Shown: positions 481-15,840 of the stretch, piece by piece
Position numbering within the stretch: the first letter of the stretch is position 1
Layout: every line of letters begins with the position of its first letter
From: an uncultured Azospirillum sp.
Lineage (GTDB): Bacteria; Pseudomonadota; Alphaproteobacteria; Azospirillales; Azospirillaceae
DNA: 52,818 nucleotides
NCBI RefSeq assembly: GCF_946480385.1
Contig: NZ_CAMLJP010000035.1
Span: 1-52,818, forward strand
Direction: 5' to 3'
Position numbers and translations under genes: made by a program
Notes under the pieces: generated by a model
What the model saw: only the letters and a program-made list of their open reading frames with translations
Told to the model about the DNA's origin: nothing
The model's database searches: none

Positions 481-759
481 ATGATGAGTGACTTGCAGAC
501 CCTGTCGCCAACCGAACTTGAATTGGCGACGCTGATCGTGAACACCCTCACCCTGGAAGCCGACCCGGAGGACATCGACCCGGACGCCCCTCTCTATGGC
601 GAAGGGCTGGGCCTCGATTCCATCGACATCCTGGAGGTGGCGCTCGCCGTCTCGAAGACCTACGGGGTGAAGCTGCGGGCGGACGACGAGAACAACACGA
701 AGATCTTCTCCTCGCTGCGCACCCTGAACAGCCACATCCAGCAGCTCAAAGCCGCCTGA
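481..759 (+). CDS. Acyl carrier protein of polyene synthase
   Basis: This 92-residue protein is an acyl carrier protein. The motif GLGLDSIDILEV places the phosphopantetheine-carrying serine at about residue 47, and the family's acidic four-helix pattern is visible. It should carry the growing polyene chain in the cytoplasm. It is first in a 12-gene same-strand operon, and its stop overlaps the next start by one base (TGATG). Two adjacent ATG codons compete as starts (481 and 484); GAGG at 476-479 is a better distance from 484. Aryl polyene clusters such as the E. coli ape locus usually have two carrier proteins (ApeE and ApeF); only one is found here. Confidence 0.9.
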   Translation: MMSDLQTLSPTELELATLIVNTLTLEADPEDIDPDAPLYGEGLGLDSIDILEVALAVSKTYGVKLRADDENNTKIFSSLRTLNSHIQQLKAA

Positions 760-1403
760 TGCCGTCCGCCGCCGCCTGGACCAGGGGAGGGGCCGCGGTG
801 GGCGCCGGCCTGTCGCTCTTCGCGCTCTATCCCCTGCTGGTCCATGGCGCCATCGTCGCCGATCTCGACGCCGACACCGCGCTGGTGCTGGCTCTGGTGC
901 AGGCCGGGGTCACCGGGCTGGTGGTGAGCCGTGCCGCCCCGCGCTTCCGCTGGATCGCGCTGGCCGGCGCCATCGCCCTGTTCGGCCTGTCCTGGCGCTC
1001 CGCCCGCGACGGGCTGCTGGCCGCCTCGGCGATCAGCCATGCCGCCATCTATGTCGGGCTGCTCACCCTGTTCGGCCGCACCCTGCTGGCCGGGCGGGAG
1101 CCGCTGATCACCTGGATCGCCCGGCGCATCCGCGGCAGCCTGACCGACGAGATGCTGGTCTACACCCGCCGCGTCACCATCGCCTGGTGCCTTTTCTTCG
1201 CCGGCCAGCTGGCGATGTCGGCCCTGCTGTTTGCCTTCGCCCCGCCGGCGGTGTGGTCCTTCTTCATCAACGTCCTCGACCTGCCGCTGGTCGCTGCGAT
1301 GTTCCTGACGGAATACGCCTACCGCCTGCGCAAGTTCTGGAACTACTCCCACGGCTCCATCGCCGACGTCGTCCGCGTCTTTTCGGAGCGGCCTAATCTA
1401 TGA
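759..1403 (+). CDS. Small integral membrane protein of aryl-polyene-type cluster (ApeG/COG4648-like)
   Basis: The 214-residue protein has five or six hydrophobic segments (about residues 14-34, 45-63, 68-82, 95-112, then two from about 145 to 190) and a basic loop near residue 120. Its place between the carrier protein and the AMP-ligase is the place of the conserved membrane protein ApeG in aryl polyene clusters. The family has no established enzymatic role and may anchor or organise the synthase at the inner membrane (inference). It is coupled on both sides: it starts inside the stop of the carrier gene and overlaps the next gene by four bases (ATGA). Confidence 0.75.
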   Translation: MPSAAAWTRGGAAVGAGLSLFALYPLLVHGAIVADLDADTALVLALVQAGVTGLVVSRAAPRFRWIALAGAIALFGLSWRSARDGLLAASAISHAAIYVGLLTLFGRTLLAGREPLITWIARRIRGSLTDEMLVYTRRVTIAWCLFFAGQLAMSALLFAFAPPAVWSFFINVLDLPLVAAMFLTEYAYRLRKFWNYSHGSIADVVRVFSERPNL

Positions 1404-2758
1404 CGATGCTGTCCACCACCCGCCTGCCGCTGCTGCGCCACGGCGGTCCCGACGACCTGTTCGCCTGGCATGACGGCCGGCCGGTGACGGTGCGCGCCTA
1501 CCTCGCCGCCGTGCGCGATCTGGCCCGCCGCCTGCCGGACGGCGCCTATCTGCTGAACCTGTGCGGCGACCGCCTGGGCTTCGCCGTCGGTCTGGGTACG
1601 GCCCTGCTGCGCCGGCAGATCTGCCTGCATCCCCCCAACGACACCCCGGCGACGCTGCGCCAGCTGGAAGAGAGCTATCCCGGCCTGATCTGCCTGACCG
1701 ATGCCGGCGCGACCTACCCCGGCATGACCTGCGTCGAGGCGCTTCCCCCCAGCGGCCTCGACAGCCTGACCGGCTCGCCCTTCGATGCCGACCTCTCCTT
1801 CCCGGCCGATCAGGTGGCGGCCATCGCCTTCACCTCCGGCTCCACCGGCCGGCCGATGCCGCAGGTGAAAAGCTGGGGCACCCTGGTGCGCAGCGTCCAT
1901 GGCGCCGGCACCGCGCTGGAGATCGCCGATCTCGGCTCCGCCGGTCTGGTCGGCACCGTGCCGCACCAGCACATGTACGGGCTGGAGTCGGTCATCCTGC
2001 TGGCGCTCCAGCACGGCTTGGTCCTGCATGGCGGCCGGCCCCTCTTCCCCGCCGACATCGCCGCCAGCCTCGCCGACCTGCCCGGCCGCCGCATCCTGGT
2101 GACCACCCCGGTCCACCTGCAGGCCCTGCTCGCCGACGGCACCGCCCTGCCGCCGCTCGACTTCATCCTCTGCGCCACCGCCCCGCTGGCTCCGCAGCTC
2201 GCCATCGACGCCGAAGCCCGGCTGGGCGCCCCGCTGCACGAGATCTACGGCTGTTCGGAGACCGGCCAGCTCGCCGTCCGCCGCACCAGCGCCACGGCCG
2301 AATGGCTCTGCATCGACGGCATCCGCCTGCGCCAGGACGAGCAAGGCACCTGGGCTTCCGGCGACTTCCTCGACGGCGAGACGCTGCTGGCCGACGTGAT
2401 CGAGCTGAAGAGCGACACCCGCTTCATCCTGCACGGCCGCTCCGCCGATCAGGTCAACATCGCCGGCAAACGCAGCTCGCTGGCCTTCCTCAACCACCAT
2501 CTGAACTCGATCGAGGGCGTGACGGACGGCGTGTTCTTCATGCCGCGGGAGGGGGACAGCGGGACCACCCGCCTCGCCGCCCTGGTGGTTGCCCCCGGCC
2601 TGACCGCCGAGACCCTGCAGGCCTGCCTGCGCGAGCGGATCGACCCGATCTTCCTGCCGCGCCCCCTGCGCTTCGTCGATGCCCTGCCGCGCAACCCGAC
2701 CGGCAAGCTGCCGCGCGAGGCCCTGCTGCGGATGCTCGACGACAGCAAGCGCGACTAG
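1400..2758 (+). CDS. AMP-dependent acyl/aryl ligase (ApeH-like)
   Basis: This 452-residue adenylate-forming enzyme has the phosphate-binding motif FTSGSTGRPMPQVK at about residues 143-156, an adenine/acid motif YGCSETGQ near 283, and the C-terminal NPTGKLPRE whose lysine (about 434) completes adenylation. In aryl polyene and xanthomonadin clusters the equivalent enzyme activates the aromatic starter acid and loads it onto the carrier protein. The actual substrate cannot be read from the sequence; 4-hydroxycinnamate/benzoate-type acids are the family expectation. The enzyme is shorter than typical 500-600-residue acyl-CoA synthetases, as is usual for this cluster type. The start ATG overlaps the previous stop. 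Confidence 0.85.
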   Translation: MTMLSTTRLPLLRHGGPDDLFAWHDGRPVTVRAYLAAVRDLARRLPDGAYLLNLCGDRLGFAVGLGTALLRRQICLHPPNDTPATLRQLEESYPGLICLTDAGATYPGMTCVEALPPSGLDSLTGSPFDADLSFPADQVAAIAFTSGSTGRPMPQVKSWGTLVRSVHGAGTALEIADLGSAGLVGTVPHQHMYGLESVILLALQHGLVLHGGRPLFPADIAASLADLPGRRILVTTPVHLQALLADGTALPPLDFILCATAPLAPQLAIDAEARLGAPLHEIYGCSETGQLAVRRTSATAEWLCIDGIRLRQDEQGTWASGDFLDGETLLADVIELKSDTRFILHGRSADQVNIAGKRSSLAFLNHHLNSIEGVTDGVFFMPREGDSGTTRLAALVVAPGLTAETLQACLRERIDPIFLPRPLRFVDALPRNPTGKLPREALLRMLDDSKRD

Positions 2759-2769
2759 GTGCCGCCGCC

Positions 2770-3063
2770 GTGCCCAACCAGACCGACATCCACTTCCCCG
2801 CCGACCATCCCACCGCCGCCGGGCATTTCCCCGGCAACCCGATCATTCCGGGGGCCGTCCTGCTCGACACCGCCCTGACGGCCATCGCCGCGGCGGAGGG
2901 ACTCACTCCCGGCCCCTGTCACCTCCGCTCCGCCAAGTTCCTGCACCCGGTCCGCCCGGGCGACCGCATGCTCGTCGAATGGCAAGCCACCGCAGCCGGC
3001 GGCATCGCCTTCACCGGCAGCGTGGCAGGCCGCCCCGTAATGACCGGCAGCGTGACCTCATGA
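2770..3063 (+). CDS. Hotdog-fold 3-hydroxyacyl-ACP dehydratase (ApeI-like)
   Basis: A small 97-residue hotdog protein starting with GTG at 2770, eleven bases after the ligase stop. It has the FabA/FabZ signature GHFPGNPIIPG (about residues 19-29), with the catalytic histidine in GHFPG; an aspartate (LLD) follows where FabZ has its active-site glutamate. It should dehydrate 3-hydroxyacyl chains to make the conjugated double bonds, alongside the second dehydratase at 10576. It overlaps the next gene by four bases (ATGA). A much longer open frame covers it, but the upstream part of that frame is out of phase with the ligase and is not coding. Confidence 0.8.
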   Translation: MPNQTDIHFPADHPTAAGHFPGNPIIPGAVLLDTALTAIAAAEGLTPGPCHLRSAKFLHPVRPGDRMLVEWQATAAGGIAFTGSVAGRPVMTGSVTS

Positions 3064-4022
3064 AGCTACCCCTGCGCGCCAAGCCGACAGCGGATGCCGC
3101 GGCCTCTCCCATCGCCCCGCCGCCGCGCCGCCGTCGCCGCAAGGAGTGGATGACCCGGCCGGAGCGCAGCACGACCGCCGCCATCAAGTTCATCGTCTGG
3201 GTCGCGCTGCGGCTCGGCCGACGGGCGGCTCGGCTGCTGCTTTATCCGATCTGCCTCTATTTCGTCCTGTTCTCGCGCAAGCCGCGCCGGGCTTCGGCGC
3301 TGTTCCTGTCCAAGGCGCTGGGCCGCACCCCCGGCTTCGGCGACCTGTTCCGCCACTATCACGTCTTCGCCGCCTGCCTGCTCGACCGCGTCTTCTTCCT
3401 GAACGACCAGTCCGACGATTTCGACATCCGCGTCCATGGCGAGGACATCGTCATCGACCTGATGCAGCGGGGGGAGGGTTGCCTGCTGATCGGCGCCCAT
3501 ATGGGCAGCTTCGAGGCGATCCGCATGCTGGGCCACCGCCAGCGCGACCTTCGCGTCAGCTTGGTGATGTATGAGGAGAACGCCCGCAAGATCAACTCGG
3601 TGCTCAATGCGATCAACCCGCTGCTGTCGATGGAGGTGATCGGGCTGGGCCGGCCGGATTCGATGCTGCGCGTGCGCGAAAGGCTGGATCAGGGGCACTT
3701 CGTCGGCATGCTCGCCGACCGCACCCTGGACGGCGAGGAGGAGGTCCGCCTGCCCTTCCTCGGCCAGCCGGCAGGCTTCGCACTGGGTCCCTTCCAGTTG
3801 GCGGCAATGCTGAAGCGGCCGGTGGTGCTGATGGTCGGGATTTATCAAGGCGGCCGGCGCTACGACGTCCATTTCGAGCGCATCGCCGACTTCTCCGATG
3901 TGCCGGTGCAGGACCGGCCGGGCCTTGTCCGCTGGGCGGCCGGGCGCTTCGCCGACCGGCTGGAGCATCACGCCCTGTCCTCCCCCTACAACTGGTTCAA
4001 TTTCTATGATTTCTGGAAATAG
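3060..4022 (+). CDS. HtrB/LpxL-like lysophospholipid acyltransferase
   Basis: The 320-residue protein has a basic N-terminus (RRRRRK near residue 25), one membrane anchor at about 40-65, and then the lipid A acyltransferase-type domain. The HX4E catalytic motif is in GAHMGSFE (about residue 147), followed by the block GMLADRTLDGEEEVRLPF near 220. It probably transfers an acyl or aryl-polyene chain onto a lipid or sugar headgroup at the inner membrane, as ApeK-type proteins are thought to do. It begins in the stop codon of the dehydratase, and its 3' end overlaps the LolA-like gene by 17 bases. Confidence 0.8.
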   Translation: MKLPLRAKPTADAAASPIAPPPRRRRRKEWMTRPERSTTAAIKFIVWVALRLGRRAARLLLYPICLYFVLFSRKPRRASALFLSKALGRTPGFGDLFRHYHVFAACLLDRVFFLNDQSDDFDIRVHGEDIVIDLMQRGEGCLLIGAHMGSFEAIRMLGHRQRDLRVSLVMYEENARKINSVLNAINPLLSMEVIGLGRPDSMLRVRERLDQGHFVGMLADRTLDGEEEVRLPFLGQPAGFALGPFQLAAMLKRPVVLMVGIYQGGRRYDVHFERIADFSDVPVQDRPGLVRWAAGRFADRLEHHALSSPYNWFNFYDFWK

Positions 4023-4608
4023 ACCGGCCCGCCGCCCGATCCTTGTGGGCTTGGGAGCCCTCCTGCTGGCCGGTGCGGTCCCGTCGCAGGCGGCCGAATC
4101 CTGGGGCCTGGAGGATTTGTTCGCCCGCTTCGCCCGGATCCCCAGTTCCAACGCCCGCTTCACCGAGACGCGCGAGATCGGCCTGCTGACGACTCCGCTG
4201 GAAAGCAGCGGCACGCTGACCTACCGCCGCCCTGATTTCCTCGAAAAGCGCACCCTGCAACCCCAGCCGGAAGGCCTGCGGCTGGAGGGCGACCGGCTGA
4301 CCCTGACCCAGGCGGACGGCGCGTCGCGCACATTGTCGATCTCCGCCATGCCGGAGATCCAGACCTATGTGGAGAGCATCCGCGCCACTCTGCGCGGCGA
4401 CGTGCCGACCCTCATGCGCTTCTACGAGGTGGCTTTGGAAGGCACGCCGCAGGACTGGCGCATGCAGCTGACCCCGCGGGCGGAGGAGGCGCGCAAGATC
4501 GTCCAGCGCATCCTCATCGCCGGCCGCGACGCCACCATCCGCCGGATCGAGGTCCTCCAGGCCGACGGCGACCGCTCCATTATGACCATACAGCCCGACC
4601 CGGCATGA
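4006..4608 (+). CDS. LolA-like periplasmic lipid carrier (ApeM-like)
   Basis: A 200-residue exported protein with an N-terminal signal peptide (hydrophobic core ILVGLGALLLAGAV, likely cleaved after PSQAA), then a mature domain with the LolA/LolB-type pattern: an SSNARFTETREIGLL strand near residue 45 and a GTLTYRRPDFLEK hairpin. These proteins are hydrophobic beta-barrel half-shells that carry lipids across the periplasm. In aryl polyene clusters they are thought to move the product to the outer membrane. The start at 4006 lies inside the previous gene; there is no better start downstream because the signal peptide would be lost. The 3' end overlaps the exporter gene (ATGA). Confidence 0.8.
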   Translation: MISGNRPARRPILVGLGALLLAGAVPSQAAESWGLEDLFARFARIPSSNARFTETREIGLLTTPLESSGTLTYRRPDFLEKRTLQPQPEGLRLEGDRLTLTQADGASRTLSISAMPEIQTYVESIRATLRGDVPTLMRFYEVALEGTPQDWRMQLTPRAEEARKIVQRILIAGRDATIRRIEVLQADGDRSIMTIQPDPA

Positions 4609-6968
4609 CGGCGGCGGTGCGACGGGGTGGATGGGCCGTTGCGCTGTGGCTGGCCGGGCTGATCGCCTCCTGCGGCCTGCTGGTGGCGCGCACCCCGGTC
4701 ACCGCCGACCTGTCCGCCTTCCTGCCGCGTTCCCCCTCCGCCACCCAGCAATTGCTGGTCGACCAGCTGCGCGACGGCGTCGTCTCCCGCCTGATCCTGA
4801 TCGCCATCGAAGGCGACGCGCCGGATCGCCTGACCGGCCTTAGCCGCGCCCTCGCCGCCCGGCTGCGCGGCAACCCGCTGGTGGCGGCGGTCGAGAATGG
4901 CGAGCGGACGGGGCGCGGTGCCGACGGCGCCTATCTCTGGTCCAACCGCTATCTGCTCAGCCCCGCCGTCACCCCCGACCGCTTCACCGCCGAGGGTCTG
5001 CACGAAGCCCTGCAGAACGACCTGCGCCTACTGCAATCGCCCGCCGGCATGGCCCTGAAGCAGGCCCTCCCAGCCGACCCCACGGCAGAGATCCTGCGCC
5101 TGACCGATCGGATGCTGGGCGACGCCACAGGCCCGGCCAGCCGCGACGGCGTGTGGGTGTCGGCCGACGGGGCGCGGGCACTGCTGCTGGTGCAGACCAC
5201 CGCCCCCGGCTTCGACATGGACGCCCAGCAGAAGACGCTCGACCTGATCCGCGGCGCCTTCGACGAGGCGCGGGCGGCAACCGGCTCCGCCCGACTGGTG
5301 ATGACCGGGCCGGCCGTCTTCTCCGTCCAGACACGCGACCGGATCGAGGCGGACGCCAGGCGCTCCTCAATCATCGCCACGGCGCTGGTGGCCGGCGTGC
5401 TGCTGCTGGTCTACCGCTCCTTCCGCGCATTGGCCCTGTCGTTGCTTCCGGCGGCGACCGGCGCGCTGGCCGGCGTCGCGGCGGTCGGGCTGGGTTTCGG
5501 CACGGTACATGGCATCACGCTGGGGTTCGGCGTCACCCTGCTGGGCGAAAGCGTCGATTACGCAATCTACCTGTTCACCCAGACCCAGCCGGGCAGCCCG
5601 GCGCGGCGCACCCTGCTGCGCATCTGGCCGACGCTACTGCTGGGGGTCGCGACCTCCGTCGTCGGCTTCGGCACGATGCTATTTTCCAGCTTCAGCGGCT
5701 TGGCGCAGCTTGGCCTGTTCTCCATCACCGGGCTGGTGGTGGCATTGGCGGTCACCCGCTGGGTGCTGCCGGTCCTGCTGCCGGAGGGCTACTCCACCGA
5801 ACGCCCGGCAAGGCTGGCACCGCTGCTGACCACCCTGACACGTGCGGCCCCGGCCTTGCGCCTGCCCCTGGCCGCCGTAACGCTGCTGTCTCTGGTATGG
5901 CTGGCCTATCAGGGCCCGACCGTCTGGTCGGCCGAGCTGTCCAGCCTCAGCCCGATCGCGGAAGCCGACCAGCGGCTTGACGAAGCGTTGCGCCGCGACC
6001 TCGGCGCCCCCGACGCCGGCCATCTGCTGGTCACCAGCGCAGCCACGGTGGACGAGGCGTTGGCCGACGCCGAACGCCTGTCCACCCCGTTGGAGGCATT
6101 GGCCCGCGACCGTCTGATCGCCGGCTACGACTCTCCCGCCCTCGTCCTTCCGAGCCAAACGGCGCAGCGCGCCCGCCAAGCCGCCCTGCCGCCGGCCGAC
6201 CAACTGCGGACTGCCCTGACCCAAGCCCTGCAAGGTCTGCCCTTTCGCCCCGATGCCTTCACCCCCTTCCTGACCGACGCGGAAAAGGCGCGGACACAAC
6301 CGCTGCTGACGCCGGCCAGCCTGGACGGCACCAGCCTGAAGCTGAAATTCGACTCCCTGCTGGTCCGCACCGGAACCGGCTGGACCGCGATGCTGCCCCT
6401 GCGCGGCGTCACCGATCCGCAGACGCTCGCCACCCGGCTGGCCGGCGATCCGGCGGCAAAGGGCGCCATCCTGCTGAACCTGAAGGAGGAATCCGACAGC
6501 CTGTACCGAACCTATAGGCAGGAGGCGCTGACGCTCGCCGTTCTCGGCGCCATCGCCATCACGGTGTTGCTGGCCGCAGCCCTGCGGTCGGTCCGCTCGC
6601 TGGTCGCGGCGGTGATGCCGCTGGCCGCGGCGGTGGTCATCACCATGGCGCTGCTGACCGCTCTGGGACAGGCACTGTCGGTCTTCCATCTGGTGGGCCT
6701 GCTGCTGGTGGTCGGTGTTGGCTCCAACTATTCCCTGCTGTTCGAGCGGCCGGAGCCGTCCGCCGCCTTGCGGGAACGTACCGTCGCCTCGGTCGCCATC
6801 GCCAACCTCTGCACGGTCATCGGCTTCGGCACGCTCGCGTTCTCCGCCATCCCCGTGCTGCATGGCATCGGCATGACGGTGGCCATCGGCGCCTTTCTCA
6901 GCCTCGCCTTCGCCGCGGTGCTGAGCCGGCGGCAGCCCTCCGGAACGGAGGGGCCCAGCCATGGCTGA
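4605..6968 (+). CDS. MMPL/RND-type lipid exporter (ApeN-like)
   Basis: The 787-residue transporter has the duplicated RND layout. One transmembrane helix (about residues 8-28) is followed by a periplasmic domain and a five-helix bundle at about 250-400, and the pattern then repeats with a helix near 420, a second periplasmic domain and a bundle at about 640-780. MMPL proteins flip or export lipids, and in xanthomonadin and aryl polyene loci this gene is needed to place the pigment in the outer membrane. It sits between the LolA-like carrier and the deacetylase gene, overlapping both, so these three are probably made together. Confidence 0.88.
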   Translation: MTAAVRRGGWAVALWLAGLIASCGLLVARTPVTADLSAFLPRSPSATQQLLVDQLRDGVVSRLILIAIEGDAPDRLTGLSRALAARLRGNPLVAAVENGERTGRGADGAYLWSNRYLLSPAVTPDRFTAEGLHEALQNDLRLLQSPAGMALKQALPADPTAEILRLTDRMLGDATGPASRDGVWVSADGARALLLVQTTAPGFDMDAQQKTLDLIRGAFDEARAATGSARLVMTGPAVFSVQTRDRIEADARRSSIIATALVAGVLLLVYRSFRALALSLLPAATGALAGVAAVGLGFGTVHGITLGFGVTLLGESVDYAIYLFTQTQPGSPARRTLLRIWPTLLLGVATSVVGFGTMLFSSFSGLAQLGLFSITGLVVALAVTRWVLPVLLPEGYSTERPARLAPLLTTLTRAAPALRLPLAAVTLLSLVWLAYQGPTVWSAELSSLSPIAEADQRLDEALRRDLGAPDAGHLLVTSAATVDEALADAERLSTPLEALARDRLIAGYDSPALVLPSQTAQRARQAALPPADQLRTALTQALQGLPFRPDAFTPFLTDAEKARTQPLLTPASLDGTSLKLKFDSLLVRTGTGWTAMLPLRGVTDPQTLATRLAGDPAAKGAILLNLKEESDSLYRTYRQEALTLAVLGAIAITVLLAAALRSVRSLVAAVMPLAAAVVITMALLTALGQALSVFHLVGLLLVVGVGSNYSLLFERPEPSAALRERTVASVAIANLCTVIGFGTLAFSAIPVLHGIGMTVAIGAFLSLAFAAVLSRRQPSGTEGPSHG

Positions 6969-7767
6969 CCGCCGTTGGACCCCATCGCCGCTGCTCCACG
7001 CATCGGCCGCCCTGCACGTCGCCGCCCTGGCCGGTGCGGCGGCTTTGCCCACGGCATGGCCTTGGGCGCTGGGCGCGGTCGCCGGCAACCATGCTCTGCT
7101 GGGAGCCGTCGGGCTCTGGCCGCGCAGCAGCCTGCTCGGTCCCAACCTGCGACGCCTGCCGGCGGAGAATGCGCGGCGGGGCCAAGTCGGCCTCTGCTTC
7201 GACGACGGCCCCGATCCGGAGGTGACGCCAGTGGTCCTCGATCAGCTCGACCGCGCGAACGCCAAGGCGAGCTTCTTCTGTATCGCCGACCGCGCCGCTC
7301 GCCATCCCGCCCTGATCGACGCCATCGTCCGCCGCGGCCATACGGTGGAGAACCACAGCTGGCACCATTCCCACCGCTTCGCCGCCATGGGCATCCGCGC
7401 CATCCGCCGCGAGGTGGGGGAGGCGCAACGCATCCTGACCGACCTCGCCGGCCGGCCACCGCGCTTCTTCAAGCCGCCGGCCGGTCTGCGCAATCCCCTG
7501 CTCGACCCTGTGCTCGCCGGCTTCGGCCTGCGTCTGGCGACCTGGACCCGGCGCGGCTACGACGCTGTGCGGCGCGACCCCGCCGGGGTGGAGCGGCGTC
7601 TTGTCCGCAATCTGGCCCCCGGCGACCTGCTGATGCTGCATGACGGCTCCGCCGCCCGCGACAACGATAACAGGCCGGTGGTGCTGACGGTGCTGCCGCA
7701 CCTGCTCGACACATTGGCCGCCCGTGGGCTGATCGCCGTTTCGCTGGAGGTGGTGGCCGATGACTGA
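6961..7767 (+). CDS. Polysaccharide deacetylase (CE4/NodB-like) in polyene operon
   Basis: This 268-residue protein has an N-terminal hydrophobic stretch (about residues 10-60, possibly two membrane segments) and a NodB homology domain. The CE4 motif 1 is FDDGPD (about 80-85, the catalytic base and first metal ligand) and the metal-binding HSxxH-type motif is HSWHH near 131. CE4 enzymes remove N- or O-acetyl groups from sugars in a metal-dependent way. In this operon it may trim an acetyl from a sugar headgroup added to the polyene (inference). It overlaps the exporter gene by eight bases and the methyltransferase by eight. Confidence 0.85.
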   Translation: MADRRWTPSPLLHASAALHVAALAGAAALPTAWPWALGAVAGNHALLGAVGLWPRSSLLGPNLRRLPAENARRGQVGLCFDDGPDPEVTPVVLDQLDRANAKASFFCIADRAARHPALIDAIVRRGHTVENHSWHHSHRFAAMGIRAIRREVGEAQRILTDLAGRPPRFFKPPAGLRNPLLDPVLAGFGLRLATWTRRGYDAVRRDPAGVERRLVRNLAPGDLLMLHDGSAARDNDNRPVVLTVLPHLLDTLAARGLIAVSLEVVADD

Positions 7768-8569
7768 CGCCGTCTTCCGCGATCTGGTGGCCGCAGCCGC
7801 TCGCCCCTATCGCCGTTGCGGCCGCTACGCCTGGCATTTCGCCAAGGGCAAGCTGGCCGGCGACCCCGTCTTCCGTCACCTGCTGAGTCAGCCGCTGCTG
7901 CCGGCCCGTGGCCGGCTGCTCGACCTCGGCTGCGGTCAGGGGGTTCTGACGGCATTGCTGCGCGCGGCGGCGGAGCGGCACGCAGGCGGCGACTGGCCGG
8001 CCGATTGGCCCGCTCCTCCCGCCGCCCTCGCCACGCAGGGCGTCGAACTGTCGCCCAAACGGGTGCGGATCGCCCAATCGGCGCTGGGAGCCGACGCCGT
8101 CGTCCAGGGCGACATCCGCAACGCCGACCTGCCGGCCTGCGACGCCATCGTCATTCTCGACGTTCTGCTCTACCTCAGCCGGAACGAACAGGAGGCAATG
8201 CTCGCCCGCTGCGCCGACGCGCTGCCTCCTGGCGGACTGCTGCTGTTGCGGGAAGGTGACGCCGATGGCGGCCTGCCCTTCCAGATCACCCGCTGGGCGG
8301 AGCAGATCGCCTGTGCCGCCCGTGGCCGCTGGCGCCAGCCTCTGACCTACCGCCCGGCGGCGGAGTGGTCCGCTCTGCTGAGCGACTTTGGCTTCACCAC
8401 GGAGGCTCTGCCGATGAGCCAGGGCACGCCCTTTGCCAACACCTTGTTCATAGGCCGCCGAAGCAACGCCTCAGTCCAAATTTGTCCTTCCGGGCATGAA
8501 TTTTCCAATGCTAGCATTTCACCGAAAATGAAACCGCAATCCGCCGCCTGCCCTGCCCAACGATCATAA
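7760..8569 (+). CDS. SAM-dependent class I methyltransferase in polyene operon
   Basis: The 269-residue protein has the SAM-binding motif I LLDLGCGQG (about residues 53-61) and the post-I acidic region VELSPKRVRIA. Motif II, DAIVILDVLLYL, is near 130-140. The last 35 residues or so are less conserved-looking and may be a tail. It could methylate the aryl head or a carboxylate of the polyene; methylated aryl heads are known in this compound class, but the substrate cannot be read here. It overlaps the deacetylase gene by eight bases and ends ten bases before the ketosynthase start, so it belongs to the operon. Confidence 0.82.
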   Translation: MTDAVFRDLVAAAARPYRRCGRYAWHFAKGKLAGDPVFRHLLSQPLLPARGRLLDLGCGQGVLTALLRAAAERHAGGDWPADWPAPPAALATQGVELSPKRVRIAQSALGADAVVQGDIRNADLPACDAIVILDVLLYLSRNEQEAMLARCADALPPGGLLLLREGDADGGLPFQITRWAEQIACAARGRWRQPLTYRPAAEWSALLSDFGFTTEALPMSQGTPFANTLFIGRRSNASVQICPSGHEFSNASISPKMKPQSAACPAQRS

Positions 8570-8579
8570 GAACTTCATC

Positions 8580-9773
8580 GTGCATCCACTTTCCCTAAGC
8601 CATATGAGCATCGTCAGCAGTCTTGGCGCTGGCCAGGATGAAACGCTGTATGCTCTGCGCAACGGCCGGGGCGGCCTGAAACCTTGCAGCTTCGAAACGG
8701 TCACGCTCGACACGCACATCGGCGAGGTGGCGGGGGTGGACGACACACGGCTGCCGGCCGAGCTTGCAGGCTATGACTGCCGCAACAATCGACTGGCCGA
8801 GATGGCGCTGCACCAGGACGGCTTCGCCGAAGCGGTCGCCGCGGTCCGCGAGCGGTACGGCGCCGACCGGATCGGGGTTTTCCTCGGCACCAGCACCTCC
8901 GGCATCCTGTCGGCCGAACTGGCTTTCCAGGCGCGCGATCCGCAGACGGGAGCCCTTCCCGCCGCCTTCAGCTTCGCCACCACCCACAGCACGGGGTCGC
9001 TCGCCGACTTCGTTCGCCGCCGCCTGGGGCTGGAAGGGCCGGCCTTCGTCGTCTCCTCCGCCTGCGCCACCACGTCGAAGGTCTTCGCCAACGCCGCCCG
9101 CATGATCGCCACCGGCGTGTGCGACGCCGCGGTGGTCGGCGGGGCCGACAGCCTGTGCCTGACGACGCTCTACGGCTTCCATTCGCTGGAACTGGTCTCT
9201 CCCACCCCCTGCCGGCCCTTCGATGCGGAGCGCAGCGGCGTCTCGCTCGGCGAGGGCGCCGGCTTCGCCCTGCTGGAACGCGTGGCTCCCAAGCCGGCCC
9301 CCGGCAGCATCAATCTGTTGGGCACCGGCGAGAGCAACGACGCGCACCACATGTCGACCCCGCATCCGGAAGGGCTGGGCGCCCGGCTGGCGATGGAGCG
9401 GGCACTGGCCAGCGCCGGCCTGCGGCCGGAGGACATCGACTATGTCAACCTGCACGGCACCGCCACCACCTACGGCGACGCGGCGGAGGATCAGGCCATC
9501 ACCGGCCTGCTCGGCACCCGCACCCCGGTCAGTTCCACCAAGGGCTACACCGGCCACACGCTGGGAGCCGCCGGCATCATAGAAGCGATCATCAGCGTGC
9601 TGGCGCTGCGCACCAGCCTGATTCCCGGAAGCCCGCAGACCCGCAATCTCGATCCCGCCCTGCGCAGCCGCTACCTGCAGGCCAACGAGACTGGACGCCT
9701 GGACCGGGTGATGACCAACTCCTTCGGCTTCGGCGGCAGCAACAGCAGCCTGATCTTCGGGTGGGCCGTCTGA
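8580..9773 (+). CDS. Beta-ketoacyl-ACP synthase (FabB/F-like, ApeO/ApeR-type)
   Basis: A full 397-residue ketosynthase with all three catalytic residues: the nucleophile in SSACATTS (Cys162), a histidine in NLHGTATTYGD (about 295) and a second histidine in KGYTGHTLGAAG (about 331). The C-terminal glycine-rich FGFGGSN is also present. It should extend the polyene chain by condensing malonyl-ACP. The start GTG at 8580 keeps the conserved N-terminal strand; an internal ATG at 8604 would remove part of it, and neither has a strong ribosome site. It overlaps the ketosynthase-like partner by one base. Confidence 0.92.
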   Translation: MHPLSLSHMSIVSSLGAGQDETLYALRNGRGGLKPCSFETVTLDTHIGEVAGVDDTRLPAELAGYDCRNNRLAEMALHQDGFAEAVAAVRERYGADRIGVFLGTSTSGILSAELAFQARDPQTGALPAAFSFATTHSTGSLADFVRRRLGLEGPAFVVSSACATTSKVFANAARMIATGVCDAAVVGGADSLCLTTLYGFHSLELVSPTPCRPFDAERSGVSLGEGAGFALLERVAPKPAPGSINLLGTGESNDAHHMSTPHPEGLGARLAMERALASAGLRPEDIDYVNLHGTATTYGDAAEDQAITGLLGTRTPVSSTKGYTGHTLGAAGIIEAIISVLALRTSLIPGSPQTRNLDPALRSRYLQANETGRLDRVMTNSFGFGGSNSSLIFGWAV

Positions 9774-10582
9774 TGTGGGCCTATGTCGAGGGCATCGGCC
9801 TGCTCGGCCCCGGTCTTCCGGGCTGGGCGGACTCGCGTGCCATCCTGGCGGGCAACAGCCCCTATGTCGCGGCGCCGGCCGTGCTGACCGCCAGTCCGCT
9901 CCTGCCCCCGGCCGAACGGCGCCGCAGCGTGCCCACCGTCAAGCTCGCCATGGCGGTGGGGGCGGAGGCGCTGGAGCAGGCCAGCCGCGACCCGGCAACC
10001 GTCGCAACCGTCTTCACCTCCTCCAGCGGCGACCCCGATACGCTGCACCAGATCCTGGAAACCCTGGCGACGGAGGAGCGCGACATCTCGCCGACCCGCT
10101 TCCACAACTCCGTCCACAACGCGCCTGCCGGCTATTGGAGCATCGCCACCCGCTGCCGCGAGCCCTCCACCAGCCTGTCGGCCCATGACGAAAGCTTCCA
10201 GGTCGGCCTGTTGGAGGCGGCGGCGGAAGTTGCGGCCGACGGCTGGACCGTCGGGCTGATCGCCTACGACCTGCCCTATCCGGAGCCGCTGAACAGAGTC
10301 CGTCCTATTACCGGCATCTTCGGCACCGCCCTGGTGCTGACCCCGCAGTTGACCGACCGCTGCCTCGCCCGACTGGATATCGGCCTGTCACGCGGAGAGG
10401 AGCCGGTCAGCCGCATGATCGACCTCGGGCTGGAGACCCTGCGCACCGGCAACCCGACCGCCCGCGCCCTGCCGCTGCTGGCGGCGCTGGCACGGGTCGG
10501 CGCCGGCGGCGCTGCGGAAACGGTGGTGCTCGACCTGCCGCCGGACGGCCGGGTGGTGGTGCGGGTCAGCGCGCCATGCTGA
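9773..10582 (+). CDS. Ketosynthase-like partner / chain-length-factor-like protein
   Basis: The 269-residue protein resembles the N-terminal half of a ketosynthase (thiolase fold; SSSGDPDTLHQIL near residue 85 and FHNSVHNAPAGYWSIAT near 112-128). It lacks the ACxTT nucleophile motif: the equivalent position reads REPSTSLSAHDESF, so it should not condense on its own. Such truncated ketosynthases (Ketoacyl-synt_2 type) stand next to active ones in aryl polyene clusters and are thought to pair with them, as chain-length factors do in type II polyketide synthases. It starts inside the stop of the ketosynthase gene (TGATG), in line with equal production. Confidence 0.82.
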   Translation: MWAYVEGIGLLGPGLPGWADSRAILAGNSPYVAAPAVLTASPLLPPAERRRSVPTVKLAMAVGAEALEQASRDPATVATVFTSSSGDPDTLHQILETLATEERDISPTRFHNSVHNAPAGYWSIATRCREPSTSLSAHDESFQVGLLEAAAEVAADGWTVGLIAYDLPYPEPLNRVRPITGIFGTALVLTPQLTDRCLARLDIGLSRGEEPVSRMIDLGLETLRTGNPTARALPLLAALARVGAGGAAETVVLDLPPDGRVVVRVSAPC

Positions 10583-11025
10583 TGACGCGCGAACAGCTGG
10601 CGGCGCTGATCCCCCATGCCGGCACCATGTGCCTGCTGGACAGCGTGCTGTCCTGGGACCGCAGCCGCATCCGCTGCATCGCCCGTAGCCACCGCGACAC
10701 GGCCAACCCGCTGCGCCATGCCGGACGGCTCGGCGCGCTGTGCGGCGTCGAATATGCGTCGCAGGCGATGGCGGTGCATGGCGGGCTAACGGCCGGCGGC
10801 GAGCGCCCCGCCGCCGGCTACCTCGCCAGCCTGCGCGACCTCGCTTGCCGCGTCGCCCGGCTCGACGACATCGCGGAGGACTTGGTCATCGACGCCGAGA
10901 ACCTGACCGGCGAGGGCAGCCGCGTAATCTACGCCTTCACCCTCTCGGCCGGCGACCGCGAGTTGCTGAGCGGCCGGGCGGCGGTGGTGATCGACGCGGG
11001 CGGTGCGGAAATGGGGGTTTCATGA
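10576..11025 (+). CDS. Second hotdog-fold dehydratase (ApeP/FabZ-like)
   Basis: This 149-residue protein is a FabZ-like hotdog dehydratase with the family pattern IPHAGTMCLLD (about residues 12-22), then HRDTANPLRHAGRLGALCGVE and YASQAMAVHG (about 50-75), which hold the expected His/Glu pair. It probably makes the conjugated double bonds of the polyene with the smaller dehydratase at 2770. It overlaps the upstream gene by seven bases and the ketoreductase by four. An ATG at 10582, just after the stop of the upstream gene, is an alternative start. Confidence 0.82.
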   Translation: MLMTREQLAALIPHAGTMCLLDSVLSWDRSRIRCIARSHRDTANPLRHAGRLGALCGVEYASQAMAVHGGLTAGGERPAAGYLASLRDLACRVARLDDIAEDLVIDAENLTGEGSRVIYAFTLSAGDRELLSGRAAVVIDAGGAEMGVS

Positions 11026-11741
11026 AACGCGCACTCGTCACTGGCGGCAGCGGCGCCCTGGGGGCCGCGATCTGCAAGGCGCTCTCCGCCGACGGCCACC
11101 ATGTGCTGGTCCACGCCAACGGCTCCCCCGCCCGCGCCGAAGCGCTGGCGGCGGAGATCATGGCATCCGGCGGATCGGCGGAAGCGGTTGCCTTCGACGT
11201 CACCGATGCCGAGGCCACCGCCACCGCCCTTGAGCGCGTGCTGGAAACCGGCCCGATCCAAATCCTGGTCAACAATGCCGGAATCCACGACGACGCGGTG
11301 ATGCCGGCGATGCGGCGGGAGCAGTGGGGCCGCGTCATCGACGTGTCGCTGAACGGCTTCTTCAACGTGACGCAGCCGCTGCTGATGCCGATGATCGGCA
11401 CGCGCTGGGGCCGGATCGTCAACGTATCGTCGGTTGCGGCCGTCGCCGGCAACCGCGGCCAGACCAACTATGCCGCTGCCAAGGCCGGGCTGCATGGCGC
11501 CACCAAATCGCTGGCGCTGGAACTCGCTCCGCGCGGCATCACCGTCAACGCAGTGGCGCCGGGCATCATCGCTTCGCCGATGGCCGACGCCGCCTTCGAC
11601 GCCGAGACGGTCAAGCGGATGGTGCCGATGAAGCGCGCCGGCCGGCCGGAGGAGGTGGCGGACCTCGTCGCCTTCCTGGCCTCCGACCGCGCCGCCTACA
11701 TCTCCGGCCAGATCGTCTCGATCAACGGAGGGATGATCTGA
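11022..11741 (+). CDS. 3-oxoacyl-ACP reductase (FabG-like, ApeQ-type)
   Basis: A 239-residue short-chain dehydrogenase with the nucleotide-binding TGGSGALG (about residues 7-14), NNAG near 84, the catalytic serine in VSSVAAV (about 136) and YAAAK (about 150-154), and an IVSINGGMI C-terminus typical of FabG. It should reduce the 3-keto intermediates before dehydration. It is last of the plus-strand operon. Its final 20 bases overlap, tail to tail, the end of the glycosyltransferase gene on the other strand, so no terminator fits between the two converging units. Confidence 0.9.
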   Translation: MKRALVTGGSGALGAAICKALSADGHHVLVHANGSPARAEALAAEIMASGGSAEAVAFDVTDAEATATALERVLETGPIQILVNNAGIHDDAVMPAMRREQWGRVIDVSLNGFFNVTQPLLMPMIGTRWGRIVNVSSVAAVAGNRGQTNYAAAKAGLHGATKSLALELAPRGITVNAVAPGIIASPMADAAFDAETVKRMVPMKRAGRPEEVADLVAFLASDRAAYISGQIVSINGGMI

Positions 11742-12507
11742 GCGGACGGGAGCGCACCCTCCGGACCGCCAGCATCGGCAGCCGACCGATGAAGCCCAGC
11801 ATCAGCCGGGTGTGCATCCAGGTCAGCAGGGCATTGTCGCGGACATAGTTGAAATGGGAAACCCCGCCCTCCTCCGCCTTGAAATAGCGGACGGGGGCCG
11901 GCACGTTGACGGTCGGCAGGCCGGCCCAGCATAGCCGCACCGCGGCCTCCGGATCGAAGTCGAAGCGCCGCATCCACGGATTGCGCCGCATCACCGCGCG
12001 CAGCGGTTTGATCGGATAGACGCGGAAGCCAAACAGCGAATCGCCGATCCCGCCCCACAGCGTCTCCAGATTGGCCCACCAGTTGGAGATCTTGCGCCCA
12101 CCCACCCGCAGCCGCGGCGCGCCGGCATCGAACACCGGCTTTCCCAGCACCAGCGCGTCGGGGTTGGCCATCGACACCCCCTGGAACTGCGGGATGCGGT
12201 TGGCCGGATGCTGGCCATCGGCGTCCATGGTCAGCGCGTGGGTGAAGCCGCAGCGCTCCGCCTCTTCCAGCCCATGCAGGACCGCGGCGCCTTTGCCTCG
12301 GTTGGCCGGCAGTTCCAGCACGCGCAGATGCGGATCGTCCGCCGTCATCGCCCGCAACGTCGCCGCCGTTCCGTCGGTGCTGCCGTCGATGACGACCCAG
12401 ACCGGCGCCCAATGGGCACGGGCATCCCGCACCGTCTCGAACAGCTTCGACCCGGTGTTGTAGCTGGGGATCAGGACCAGATGGCTGGATGAGGCGTCGG
12501 TGTTCAA
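11722..12507 (-). CDS. Family 2 glycosyltransferase (DPM1-like)
   Basis: The 261-residue GT-A enzyme has LIPSYNTGSKL (about residues 12-22), the nucleotide-sugar site WVVIDGSTDGT (about 37-47) and LTMDADGQHP (about 89-98) with the metal-binding DAD. It would add a sugar to the polyene lipid or a polyprenyl carrier. In E. coli, ApeJ joins glycosyltransferase and acyltransferase activities in one protein; here they appear as two adjacent genes. The start is a TTG overlapping the stop of the acyltransferase (TTGA), the usual sign of translational coupling. It is the last gene of a three-gene minus-strand unit. Confidence 0.85.
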   Translation of the reverse strand: MNTDASSSHLVLIPSYNTGSKLFETVRDARAHWAPVWVVIDGSTDGTAATLRAMTADDPHLRVLELPANRGKGAAVLHGLEEAERCGFTHALTMDADGQHPANRIPQFQGVSMANPDALVLGKPVFDAGAPRLRVGGRKISNWWANLETLWGGIGDSLFGFRVYPIKPLRAVMRRNPWMRRFDFDPEAAVRLCWAGLPTVNVPAPVRYFKAEEGGVSHFNYVRDNALLTWMHTRLMLGFIGRLPMLAVRRVRSRPLRSSLR

Positions 12508-13286
12508 AGCTCTGCCCTATAATGGCGTTCAAGATCCTCGACCAGCCCGCGCACGTCGGTCGGCGGATCGAAGCGGCGACCGAGGCGGACGGTGTAGACC
12601 AGCGGAAACTCCGGCTTGCGGAACAGCGGCCAGCCCTTGCCGAGGAAATTGCTGTTGGCGTCGATGAAGACGGTCTGCACCGGCGCGCCCGCCGTCTTGG
12701 CGATCAGCGCGAAGCCGCCCTTCAGCGGGTTGACCGGCGCCCGCTCCGTCCGGGTGCCTTCGGGGAAGATCAGCAATTGATGGCCGGCGCGCACCCGCTG
12801 TGCCGCCATCTTGACCAGCGAGTTGGGCGCGTCATTGCGGATATAGCCGGCCATCCGCGCCCCGCCGCCGTAGAGGAGGTTGTCGTAAACCGGGGCCTTG
12901 GCGATGCAGACGACGTCCGGCAAGCGCGAGATCAGCAGCACGGCATCCAGGATCGACGGATGGTTCGGGCAGATCAGCAAGCCGCCGTCACCCTTCAGCG
13001 AATCCAACGCCGACAGGTCGGTCTTCAGCACTCCGCAGGCCCGCAGCGTGCCGAGATAGAGGCGAAATCCCGTCCTGATCGCCTGCCGCCCGAGCGGCCC
13101 GGCAACCCGGCGCGGCAGAAGCGGACCGATCAGCGCCGCCGTCAGGCTCCAGGCCAGCGACATCAGGCCGAATAGGAACAGCAGGACATAGAACAAGGGA
13201 TATTCCCAAGCCCACCGGACCGCGCCGAGAAAGCTTAGGCCGCGTCGCCCAGAGGCGTGCGCACGTTCTGCCGCCGTTTCCGCCAT
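12504..13286 (-). CDS. PlsC-type 1-acylglycerol-3-phosphate acyltransferase-like protein
   Basis: This 260-residue membrane-bound acyltransferase has a hydrophobic N-terminus (about residues 28-62). The HX4D catalytic motif is in CPNHPSILDAV (about 108-116) and the substrate-binding motif is FPEGTR (about 178-183). It probably esterifies the polyene to a glycerol-, sugar- or other hydroxyl acceptor. Its ATG lies 52 bases inside the halogenase gene, a long overlap with no good start further in. The next gene starts in its stop codon. Confidence 0.85.
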   Translation of the reverse strand: MAETAAERAHASGRRGLSFLGAVRWAWEYPLFYVLLFLFGLMSLAWSLTAALIGPLLPRRVAGPLGRQAIRTGFRLYLGTLRACGVLKTDLSALDSLKGDGGLLICPNHPSILDAVLLISRLPDVVCIAKAPVYDNLLYGGGARMAGYIRNDAPNSLVKMAAQRVRAGHQLLIFPEGTRTERAPVNPLKGGFALIAKTAGAPVQTVFIDANSNFLGKGWPLFRKPEFPLVYTVRLGRRFDPPTDVRGLVEDLERHYRAEL

Positions 13287-14548
13287 GCCATGTAGTTCCT
13301 TTTGAAGTCCAGCAGGGCGTTCATGTAGTAGATCGCCTTGAATATCTTCAGCCGCGTCTTGATCGGTGACGGGCGGAAGACGTCGCCGGCCAGAAGCGAC
13401 AGCAGCGCCTCCTCCACCCGGAAGACGTTGCGTGGTCCCATGAACAGGTTGCGCAGCGCCGGCGTCGTCACCCGATAGATGTACCAGGAGAAGGTGCCGA
13501 TGCCCTGGCGGACCGTCCGCTCGAAATGCTTCAGCACCTGCTCCTGGCGCGCCGGCTCGCGCAGGCAGGCATCGACCGCCTCGGCCCCTTCGAAGGCGCT
13601 GGTCATCGCCAGATAGACGCCGGTGGAGAACACCGGGTCGATGAAGGCGAAGGCGTCGCCCAGCATGACGTAACCCGGCCCCGACATGCGGTCCGCTTGG
13701 TAGGAGAAGTTGCCGGTTCCCGTCACTGGGCCGGTCAGTTCCGCCCCCTCCAGCCGCTCCGCCAGCGCCGGGCAGAGCGCCACGGTATCGAGGAAGAAGC
13801 GGGTCTGGTCGGTCCGCCGCGTCTTGAAATAATAGGGCCAGCAGACCGCGCCGACGCTGGTGGTGCCGTCCGCCAGCGGGATGAACCAGAACCAGCCATG
13901 GTCGAACCAGAAGACGGTGATGTTGCCTTCCGCCTTGCCCGGCAGCCGTTTGGCGCCGGTGAAATGGCCGAACATTGCCGCGCTGTTGTGCTTGACGTTG
14001 CGCCGCTTGATGCCGAAACGGGACGCCAGCAGGGTGTCGCGTCCCGATGCATCGACCAGGAAGCGCGTGCGCAGTGTGCGGACAGTGCCGTCCTCCTGGC
14101 GGGCGGTGACGGTGGTGCCCTCAGCCCCCTGGATGTCGACGTCCGTCACCTTGCAGCCCTCGATGACGGTGGCGCCCTTGGCGGCGGCGTTGCGGATCAG
14201 GATGTGGTCGAATTCCGACCGGCGGACCTGATAGGCATAGGGCTTGGTCTTGTCCCAGGCGTTGGCGAAGTCGAAGGTCACCGACTTGCCGTGATAGGGC
14301 GACACGAACTCCGCACCGCATTTCAGCATGCCGATCCGCTCCACCTCCTCCAGCACGCCCAACTCCCTCAGCAGGGGCAGGTTGCAGGGAAGCAGGGATT
14401 CGCCGATGTGGAAGCGGGGGTGATGGTCCTTTTCCAGCAGCATCACCCGATGGCCTTTTCCGGCCAGCAGCGCCGCCGCGGTCGACCCGGCCGGTCCGCC
14501 ACCCACCACCAGGACATCGCAGTCGTAGTTGGAACCGTTCGACACCAT
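13235..14548 (-). CDS. Flavin-dependent halogenase-like FAD enzyme
   Basis: The 437-residue protein opens with the FAD-binding GGGPAGS (residues 16-22) and carries FHIGESLLP (46-54). Its WxWxIP motif, GWFWFIP (218-224), is a hallmark of flavin-dependent halogenases that blocks monooxygenase activity. A second FAD motif, GYVMLGDAFAFIDPVFSTG, is near 290. It looks most like the PltA/CndH branch that acts on carrier-bound substrates. In this cluster it may chlorinate or brominate the aryl head, as xanthomonadins are brominated (family knowledge; the substrate is inferred). The ATG at 14548 was chosen because it directly precedes the FAD domain; a longer frame upstream reads through a 9-bp tandem repeat. 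Confidence 0.82.
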   Translation of the reverse strand: MVSNGSNYDCDVLVVGGGPAGSTAAALLAGKGHRVMLLEKDHHPRFHIGESLLPCNLPLLRELGVLEEVERIGMLKCGAEFVSPYHGKSVTFDFANAWDKTKPYAYQVRRSEFDHILIRNAAAKGATVIEGCKVTDVDIQGAEGTTVTARQEDGTVRTLRTRFLVDASGRDTLLASRFGIKRRNVKHNSAAMFGHFTGAKRLPGKAEGNITVFWFDHGWFWFIPLADGTTSVGAVCWPYYFKTRRTDQTRFFLDTVALCPALAERLEGAELTGPVTGTGNFSYQADRMSGPGYVMLGDAFAFIDPVFSTGVYLAMTSAFEGAEAVDACLREPARQEQVLKHFERTVRQGIGTFSWYIYRVTTPALRNLFMGPRNVFRVEEALLSLLAGDVFRPSPIKTRLKIFKAIYYMNALLDFKRNYMAWRKRRQNVRTPLGDAA

Positions 14549-14561
14549 GGGCTTTGCCGCT

Positions 14562-14597
14562 CTCCCGCTTGTCCCGCTTGTCCCGCTTGTCCCGCTT
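14562..14597. repeat. Four-copy 9-bp tandem repeat in the halogenase leader
   Basis: The unit GTCCCGCTT is repeated three times exactly (14571-14597), preceded by one variant copy starting with C (14562-14570). On the minus strand it lies 14-49 bases upstream of the halogenase start codon, so it is within its leader or ribosome-site region. If translation began further upstream in the same frame, the repeat would read as Thr-Ser-Gly units. Copy-number change by slippage would alter leader spacing without shifting a frame (27, 36 or 45 bases). Confidence 0.85.
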
Positions 14598-14967: not shown

Positions 14968-15840
14968 ATGGTGCGTGTGTTGCCAACGACGCTTGCCGTT
15001 GCCGCCTGCGCCTTGTCGGCGGTGCTCGGCTTGCCGGGTCGGGGCTATGCGCAGGAACCGGGCAAGCCTCTGTTCGAGATTGGCATCGGCGGCGGTGTCG
15101 GCTACATCCCCGACTATCCCGCAGCCGACCAGAACCATCTCCAGGCCGCCGCCCTGCCCTATGTCATCTATCGCGGCGAGGTGTTCCGCGCCGACCGCAA
15201 CGGCATCCAGGGACGCATCTACCGCTCCGACCGCGTGACCTTCGAGGTCAGCCTGGAAGGCGCGCTGGGTTCTTCGGCCGACGACAACCGGGCGCGCCAG
15301 GGCATGCCCGACATCGATCTGCTGGGCGAGGTCGGCCCGGCACTGAAGATCAACCTGCACCGCGACAGCGACCGGCGCGAGCGAATCGACCTGACCCTGC
15401 CGGTGCGCAGCGTCTTCTCCACCGATTTCAGCCGCATCAAATACCGCGGCCTCGTCTTCGCCCCCGATGTCGCCTACAGCAAGGCCGGCTTGATTTCGGG
15501 CGACGACCAGTTCCGCCTCAGCCTGGGGCCGATCTTCGCCTCCAGCCATTTGATGGATTATTTCTATCAGGTCGACCCGCAATATGCGCGGCCGGGCCGC
15601 CCGGCCTACGACGCCCGCGCCGGTTACCTGGGTCTTCGCCTGCACAGCTCCCTCGTCATGCCGGTGACGGAGCGGATTTCCGCCTTCGGCGCCGTGCGGG
15701 GAGAGCTGTTTTCCGGTGCCACCAACGACGACAGCCCGCTCTACAAGCGCACCGTCAACCTGTCGGTCGGGGCCGGCTTCACCTTCTCGCTCTACCGGTC
15801 CGACAGTCGGGTCAGCGCGGTGAGCGACATTCTCGACTGA
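14968..15840 (+). CDS. MipA/OmpV-family outer membrane protein
   Basis: The 290-residue protein has a signal peptide (TTLAVAACALSAVLG core, cleavage near GYAQ) and the MipA/OmpV pattern: IGIGGGVGYIPDYPAADQN near residue 35, YVIYRGEVFRADRNGIQGR strands, and a run of amphipathic beta strands ending in an aromatic-poor C-terminus. It should form a beta-barrel in the outer membrane. Family members act as murein-hydrolase scaffolds or small porins. The start ATG at 14968 has GGGG just upstream. Being divergent from the halogenase unit and just past the polyene operon, it may help place or pass the pigment at the outer membrane (inference). Confidence 0.82.
   Translation: MVRVLPTTLAVAACALSAVLGLPGRGYAQEPGKPLFEIGIGGGVGYIPDYPAADQNHLQAAALPYVIYRGEVFRADRNGIQGRIYRSDRVTFEVSLEGALGSSADDNRARQGMPDIDLLGEVGPALKINLHRDSDRRERIDLTLPVRSVFSTDFSRIKYRGLVFAPDVAYSKAGLISGDDQFRLSLGPIFASSHLMDYFYQVDPQYARPGRPAYDARAGYLGLRLHSSLVMPVTERISAFGAVRGELFSGATNDDSPLYKRTVNLSVGAGFTFSLYRSDSRVSAVSDILD

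Follow-up and report, generated by a model that had tools for sequence, protein, structure and literature searches.

The window analyzed here is the 52,818-nucleotide stretch NZ_CAMLJP010000035.1 (positions 1 to 52,818) from an uncultured Azospirillum sp. Its positions 481 to 14,548, together with the adjoining genes, very probably form an aryl-polyene (APE) lipid locus of the arc type in Azospirillum, in which the arc genes are gathered in one place and include one for a flavin adenine dinucleotide (FAD)-dependent protein of the halogenase family. This confidence applies to the explanation as a whole, within which gene content, order, motifs, fold and conservation were observed and all of the chemistry is predicted. 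Open reading frames together with Pfam and NCBIfam matches gave 13 co-directional genes on the plus strand (481-11741) and three convergent genes on the minus strand (11722-14548). The features by which an APE locus is recognized are present: a ketosynthase (KS) with a chain-length-factor-like (CLF) partner; an acyl carrier protein (ACP), a ligase, two dehydratases and a 3-ketoacyl-ACP reductase (KR); and acyltransferases, a family 2 glycosyltransferase (GT2), a LolA-like carrier and an MMPL exporter. The KS and the ACP reach the cut-offs of PRK09185, which we take to be the APE-type ketosynthase model, and PRK09184, in agreement with the xanthomonadin-like APE machinery proposed in an earlier sequence-only reading of this DNA. 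Every gene class named in that reading was found open and in its place by reading frames and Pfam or NCBIfam matches, dehydratase 2 by the annotation of its orthologue. The first gene encodes the carrier protein (ATG at 481) and the FAD protein gene begins with an ATG at 14548 on the minus strand, so that both ends proposed earlier fit start codons. A small protein gene (759-1403), the deacetylase gene and an S-adenosylmethionine (SAM) methyltransferase gene lie inside the locus, and MipA-family and UbiE-like genes lie beyond it, to 16651.

481..759, plus strand: acyl carrier protein (ArcV/ApeE-like); PF00550; NCBIfam PRK09184 118.5 bits, cut-off 70
759..1403, plus strand: small protein, membrane protein by eye, in the ArcU position and ApeG/COG4648-like by position only; open reading frame without family match, homologues in other loci
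1400..2758, plus strand: AMP-ligase, putatively loading the aryl starter (ArcT-like); PF00501, PF13193; substrate predicted
2770..3063, plus strand: dehydratase 1, FabA/FabZ-like hot-dog (ArcS-like); PF07977 5.5e-6 on 2746-3060; GTG at 2770 is the chosen start
3060..4022, plus strand: acyltransferase, LpxL/LPLAT type (ArcR-like); PF03279 1.8e-10
4006..4608, plus strand: LolA-like periplasmic carrier (ArcQ-like); PF19574 8e-22; LolA2_flexi 43 bits, under the cut-off of 125
4605..6968, plus strand: MMPL/RND exporter (ArcP-like); PF03176 3.2e-16
6961..7767, plus strand: NodB-like polysaccharide deacetylase (ArcN-like); PF01522 1.1e-25
7760..8569, plus strand: SAM methyltransferase (ArcM-like); PF13489 3.8e-11
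8580..9773, plus strand: KS (ArcK-like); PRK09185 517 bits, cut-off 407
9773..10582, plus strand: CLF-like partner (ArcJ-like); PF13723 1.3e-27; orthologue annotated chain length factor
10576..11025, plus strand: dehydratase 2 (ArcI-like); no Pfam or NCBIfam match; orthologue annotated hydroxymyristoyl-ACP dehydratase
11022..11741, plus strand: KR (ArcH-like); PRK05653.1-5 361 bits, cut-off 273
11722..11741, no strand: overlap of the converging KR and GT2 genes, 20 bases, exact
11722..12507, minus strand: GT2 (ArcE-like); PF00535 9e-17
12504..13286, minus strand: acyltransferase, PlsC type (ArcD-like); PF01553 3.4e-15
13235..14548, minus strand: FAD-dependent halogenase-family protein, 437 aa (ArcA-like); PF04820 (Trp_halogenase) 4.1e-32; motifs; fold model
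14968..15840, plus strand: MipA/OmpV-family outer-membrane protein (ArcC-like), divergent from the halogenase gene; PF06629 1.3e-38 on 14905-15837; ATG at 14968 is the chosen start
15872..16651, plus strand: UbiE-like methyltransferase, linked to the locus in other genomes; PF01209 1.3e-31

The halogenase-family protein

By sequence, modelled fold and predicted catalytic residues, the FAD protein is a convincing candidate flavin-dependent halogenase. The closest solved structures by sequence were CndH (3.6e-63) and FasV (8zop; 2e-62), followed by RadH, PltA, Mpy16 and CmlS. Motifs were examined across 201 aligned sequences (the window protein, 120 database proteins and 80 from loci, with redundancy kept), which represent the nearest relatives and not the whole family. 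In all 201 the FAD motif GxGxxG (G16, G18 and G21) was invariant, as were W219, W221, I223 and P224 of the WxWxIP motif, which the sequence-only reading had pointed out and which reads W219-F-W-F-I-P224 in the window protein. Equally invariant (201/201) were F302, D304, P305, F307, S308 and G310 of an FxDPxFSxG motif, and K76, which aligns with a Lys of CndH, FasV, RadH, PltA and Mpy16 that is presumably the catalytic lysine of flavin-dependent halogenases.

A predicted model of the protein, built with a 35-sequence alignment, had a mean pLDDT of 87.9 and a pTM of 0.88, and Foldseek gave FasV (E 3.3e-37), RadH, PltA and CndH as its nearest structures. Halogenases filled the top 42 places in the ranking of fold matches apart from the chains of 3nix (a flavoprotein/dehydrogenase from structural genomics), and the highest-ranked hydroxylase came at 43 among the 50 matches listed. 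Identity to flavin-dependent halogenases in the fold alignments was 26-34%. The homology to halogenases on which the sequence-only reading depended is thus real, being found in Pfam, among solved structures and in the fold. The alternative that the protein is a mere relative of geranylgeranyl reductases or hydroxylases was rejected on the fold ranking and the invariant motifs. The gene is under purifying selection, with a ratio of nonsynonymous to synonymous substitution rates (dN/dS) of 0.075-0.214 in nine comparisons, values near the low end for the 12 genes compared. The substrates of CndH, PltA and Mpy16 are carrier-bound, which would fit an ACP-bound aryl chain as the substrate here. Note that a distant flavoprotein relative of the halogenase (~30-33% identity), mostly in a longer frame, was seen in the Azospirillum genome G001 (G001:C3:276399-277337) and at similar places in other Azospirillum genomes, both with and without an APE locus.

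Conservation, layout and host

Relatives of the halogenase numbered 558 in all, and the locus statistics given here refer to the best 80. Another window gene lay within the available stretch in 78 of these 80 loci, and the other two (L045 and L077) have arcB. The gene row from the UbiE-like gene to the first acyltransferase gene, the MipA-like gene aside, was kept in eight of nine Azospirillum records as far as their stretches reach; the ninth (L004) is a short contig carrying part of the row. A chance grouping of genes was rejected, since the row is kept across the Azospirillum records and is annotated in Azospirillum ramasamyi. None of the ten Azospirillum and Skermanella loci lacked the UbiE-like gene, and the genome G039 also has it, between the halogenase and ACP genes. 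The MipA-like gene was present in seven of the ten and was not detected in L008, L009 and L010.

Among 41 related genomes, a close halogenase was found in seven (6 of the 25 Azospirillum genomes, plus G039) and an APE ketosynthase in the same seven, the remaining KS matches being 1e-84 or weaker. A broader set of 289 alphaproteobacterial genomes sampled from the class was searched with thresholds of E up to 1e-100 for the KS and up to 1e-80 for the halogenase. The KS was found in nine and the halogenase in ten, and all nine KS genomes carry the halogenase. The two genes share a contig, with less than 10 kb between them, in seven of the nine and are on different contigs in G071 and G173. The halogenase-family enzyme is a standing part of arc/xan-type APE loci.

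The halogenases of nine Azospirillum records are 89-96% identical to that of the window, the A. oryzae record L001 standing at 96%, and that of Skermanella aerolata is 81% identical, in keeping with the Rhodospirillales host suggested earlier, which is Azospirillum. The closest genome compared has 22% of sampled 31-letter words in common with the window. The full gene set is also present in G001 and is annotated in A. ramasamyi M2T2B2 on plasmid unnamed2 (NZ_CP029832.1, a replicon of 644,647 bases). The window opens with about 100 bases (positions 1-100) of almost pure C and G, apparently an artefact of assembly or sequencing, so the contig probably stops shortly before the first gene. The ACP gene is preceded by ABC transporter genes and a mannitol-dehydrogenase-like gene in G001 and by an annotated aminotransferase gene in A. 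ramasamyi, and thus the locus seems to start at the ACP.

The KR stop codon ends at 11741 and the GT2 stop codon occupies 11722-11724, giving exactly the 20-base overlap of converging units that had been noticed before. Among the 50 related loci in which it could be measured, 14 have an overlap of this length: the ten from Azospirillum and Skermanella without exception, the Rhodospirillales metagenome-assembled genome (MAG) L012, Acidocella aromatica L066 and the betaproteobacterial MAGs L034 and L056. The remaining loci have other lengths or gaps. A separate function for the overlap was rejected on this distribution; an inherited layout would be the simplest reading of the sequences. A scan of the divergent region 14400-15100 for a promoter and a terminator found none. 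Close downstream of the locus lies a sigma-70-family factor gene (18251-19432, minus strand), and rpoH is annotated at the corresponding A. ramasamyi site. A polysaccharide pyruvyl transferase gene follows at 19834-21192 (PF04230, 7.4e-11); another is annotated near the A. ramasamyi locus.

Aryl starter and product

In the scheme that we propose, the ligase would load hydroxybenzoate onto the carrier protein, and the KS/CLF pair, with the KR and the two dehydratases, would elongate it by repeated malonyl additions to give the polyene. A methyltransferase would cap the phenol. The acyltransferases, perhaps with GT2 and the NodB-like deacetylase, would attach the polyene to a lipid or sugar-lipid anchor, and export to the outer membrane would fall to MMPL and LolA. 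For the FAD protein, the probable substrate is an aryl intermediate bound to the carrier. A glycosylated product is possible, given the predicted GT2 gene.

Several results weigh against this account of the locus. One of the 289 genomes (G086) has the halogenase without a KS at the thresholds used. None of the 25 curated NCBIfam models listed (79 matched) reached its cut-off with the FAD protein; the CmlS halogenase model scored 218 of 900 bits and the QhpG monooxygenase model 166 of 240, and the LodB and GoxB flavoprotein models also scored below cut-off. As the CmlS model is product-specific, its missed cut-off speaks only against a named subfamily. A literature search that covered few subscription papers found no report of an APE from Azospirillum. 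The remaining adverse points concern the aryl starter and the product of a related cluster in Azoarcus.

The best match to a chorismatase (XanB2/ArcB) within the window reaches only E 0.27. ArcB-type chorismatases were sought in the 41 relatives using the Azoarcus indigens protein and PF21168 as queries. The protein query matched two genomes, G039 strongly and G023 weakly (29% identity, without the cluster), and PF21168 matched G039 and none of 14 control genomes, leaving G039 as the sole positive. An ArcB/XanB2-type chorismatase was thus found in none of the six cluster-bearing Azospirillum genomes, and neither UbiC (E. coli control positive) nor the Rv2949c-like family (three controls positive) was found in any of the 41 relatives. 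Since no starter-making gene was found, the claim in the sequence-only reading that the locus is complete is not supported. arcB was found in 52 of the 80 halogenase loci and was not in the available stretch of 28, short contigs included, indicating that its lack is not unique to Azospirillum and that a chorismatase is not strictly locus-defining.

Because UbiC is in none of them, the 41 relatives presumably make hydroxybenzoate by another route, and the locus may tap this alternative route of its host. Note that the known genes sought (UbiC, Rv2949c-like and chorismatase) do not account for the supply of 4-hydroxybenzoate for ubiquinone in the 41 relatives. Aromatic ammonia-lyases (PF00221) were considered as the source of the starter. 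Each of the 25 Azospirillum genomes, cluster-bearing or not, has a full-length copy, which owing to this universality is probably HutH. Of the six with the cluster, G017 and G025 have a second strong match, but so have G005 and G008, which are without it, and the second match is therefore not decisive.

The sequence-only reading had predicted a halogenated aryl polyene, and this part fared less well. The Azoarcus BH72 cluster holds arcA, annotated as a halogenase, and its product arcuflavin is described as C41H52O4, a nonbrominated aryl-heptaene esterified to a dialkylresorcinol (PMC3949708). A halogenase gene by itself therefore does not predict a halogenated product. NMR proved infeasible in that study, and we found no experiment on arcA itself in it. 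BH72 was cultivated in LB with 0.5% NaCl (PMC3949708), and thus chloride was plentiful in the cultures. No halide-specific feature was recognized in the Azospirillum locus, but no search was aimed at one. Read from gene content, a halogenated aryl polyene is only a guess, and the closest analogue argues against it. That the FAD protein leaves a halogen on the product is quite conceivable, although we lean slightly toward doubt. We judge in the same way, as falling just short of probable, that the regular product of the locus is a brominated or chlorinated aryl polyene like that of Xanthomonas. The halogenase fold, the invariant catalytic residues and the purifying selection argue for such a product, as do the xanthomonadins, which carry 0-2 Br and have a halogenase gene in their clusters, Lysobacter enzymogenes being described as having neither (PMC3691225), whereas the unhalogenated arcuflavin of the arcA-bearing Azoarcus (PMC3949708) argues against it. 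That same compound would be expected if the FAD protein kept the halogenase fold but either hydroxylated or oxidized a carrier-bound intermediate in some different flavin reaction, or halogenated transiently or under certain conditions, leaving no halogen in the pigment under usual growth. This explanation is possible, if distinctly doubtful. Retention of the gene in every KS-bearing genome of the 289 is consistent with it, and other flavin chemistry would agree with the QhpG, LodB and GoxB scores, but not with halogenase-type residues that are invariant in all 201 near relatives or with a fold ranking in which, 3nix aside, only halogenases precede the first hydroxylase.

An arcuflavin-like product, in which the polyene is esterified to a dialkylresorcinol and not to a glyco- or phospholipid, seems very unlikely. 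The closest characterized cluster, that of BH72, makes such a hybrid (PMC3949708), but no dar genes were recognized around the locus, a weak objection since DarA and DarB were not searched directly. β-Ketoacyl-ACP synthase (KAS) III-type matches, used as a proxy for DarB, numbered four or five per cluster-bearing Azospirillum genome and two in A. indigens. Two of the four in G001 were inspected and lie in other neighbourhoods, one of them beside flagellin by eye. Among the 28 largest groups of conserved extra genes in the loci, no dar-like pair was recognized by eye, without a family scan. We consider it unlikely as a combined proposal that a halogenase-fold enzyme has been fixed in arc-type APE assembly without decorating the end product, acting instead on the carrier-bound aryl or polyene chain by flavin chemistry that is transient or of another kind, and that Azospirillum obtains its starter by a route using neither XanB2 nor UbiC. 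A search of titles and abstract openings in the literature found no functional test of an arc- or xan-type halogenase enzyme.

APEs are yellow pigments and widespread outer-membrane antioxidant lipids, and Azospirillum is a plant inoculant, so the pigment of the arc-type locus could bear on its stress survival. Knowing what the enzyme does would show either that bacteria of soil and plant roots commonly make halogenated APE lipids or that a whole group of "halogenases" carries the wrong name. The halogenase accompanies the KS in nine of nine KS-bearing genomes of the 289, yet the single characterized product found for such a gene set is unhalogenated.

Comparison with known systems

Table 1 of PMC3949708 gives the arc genes of Azoarcus BH72 in two unlinked loci, arcV-M in one place and arcK-A in another, whereas those of the window lie in one place. 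By annotation only, 17 arc gene classes (V, U, T, S, R, Q, P, N and M; K, J, I and H; E, D, C and A) have window counterparts. The window locus showed no counterpart of arcB (the chorismatase), arcF, arcG, arcL, arcO, arcW or arcX, and it has a UbiE-like methyltransferase gene beside it. In BH72 the pigment was lost when arcK or arcT carried an insertion (PMC3949708). The Azoarcus indigens locus (L080) has the order halogenase, chorismatase, MipA, acyltransferase, GT2, two proteins (ArcF and ArcG by eye), KR, dehydratase, CLF, KS. This is the BH72 order, and L080 was used as a stand-in for BH72; from the place of MipA there, the window MipA-family gene corresponds to ArcC.

The xanthomonadin (pig) locus of Xanthomonas, compared by its description in PMC3691225, resembles the window locus in combining aryl polyene machinery with a halogenase gene. 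It differs in its brominated product (0-2 Br) and in XanB2, which makes hydroxybenzoate in Xanthomonas (PMC3949708), whereas no XanB2-type gene was found here. The E. coli CFT073 ape locus likewise has an ACP, a ligase, two dehydratases, a KR and a KS, together with a LolA-like protein, an RND exporter, acyltransferases, a glycosyltransferase and a methyltransferase (PMC8253772). Its gene table lists no halogenase or deacetylase and does list two ACPs, the glycosyltransferase/acyltransferase ApeJ and the thioesterase ApeK (PMC8253772). The flavin-dependent halogenases CndH, FasV, RadH, PltA, CmlS, Mpy16 and Bmp2 have the same fold as the FAD protein, and in alignments CndH, FasV, RadH, PltA and Mpy16 have the Lys, WxWxIP and FxDPxxSxG in common with it; the substrate here, in contrast, would be an APE intermediate.

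For Acetobacteraceae clusters, a "probable halogenase" next to the KS of the APE genes has already been published (PMC8776678), and arylpolyene (xanthomonadin) clusters have been reported in Roseomonas (PMC8414978). An APE locus with a halogenase is annotated on plasmid p546-1 of Roseomonas haemaphysalidis. These loci, also of Rhodospirillales, have APE genes in a similar order with the halogenase; they differ in belonging to another family, and the deacetylase, GT2 and methyltransferase are not annotated in the stretch of p546-1 examined. The Azospirillum locus is thus a new member of the known arc/xan-type APE loci and is ordinary in kind.

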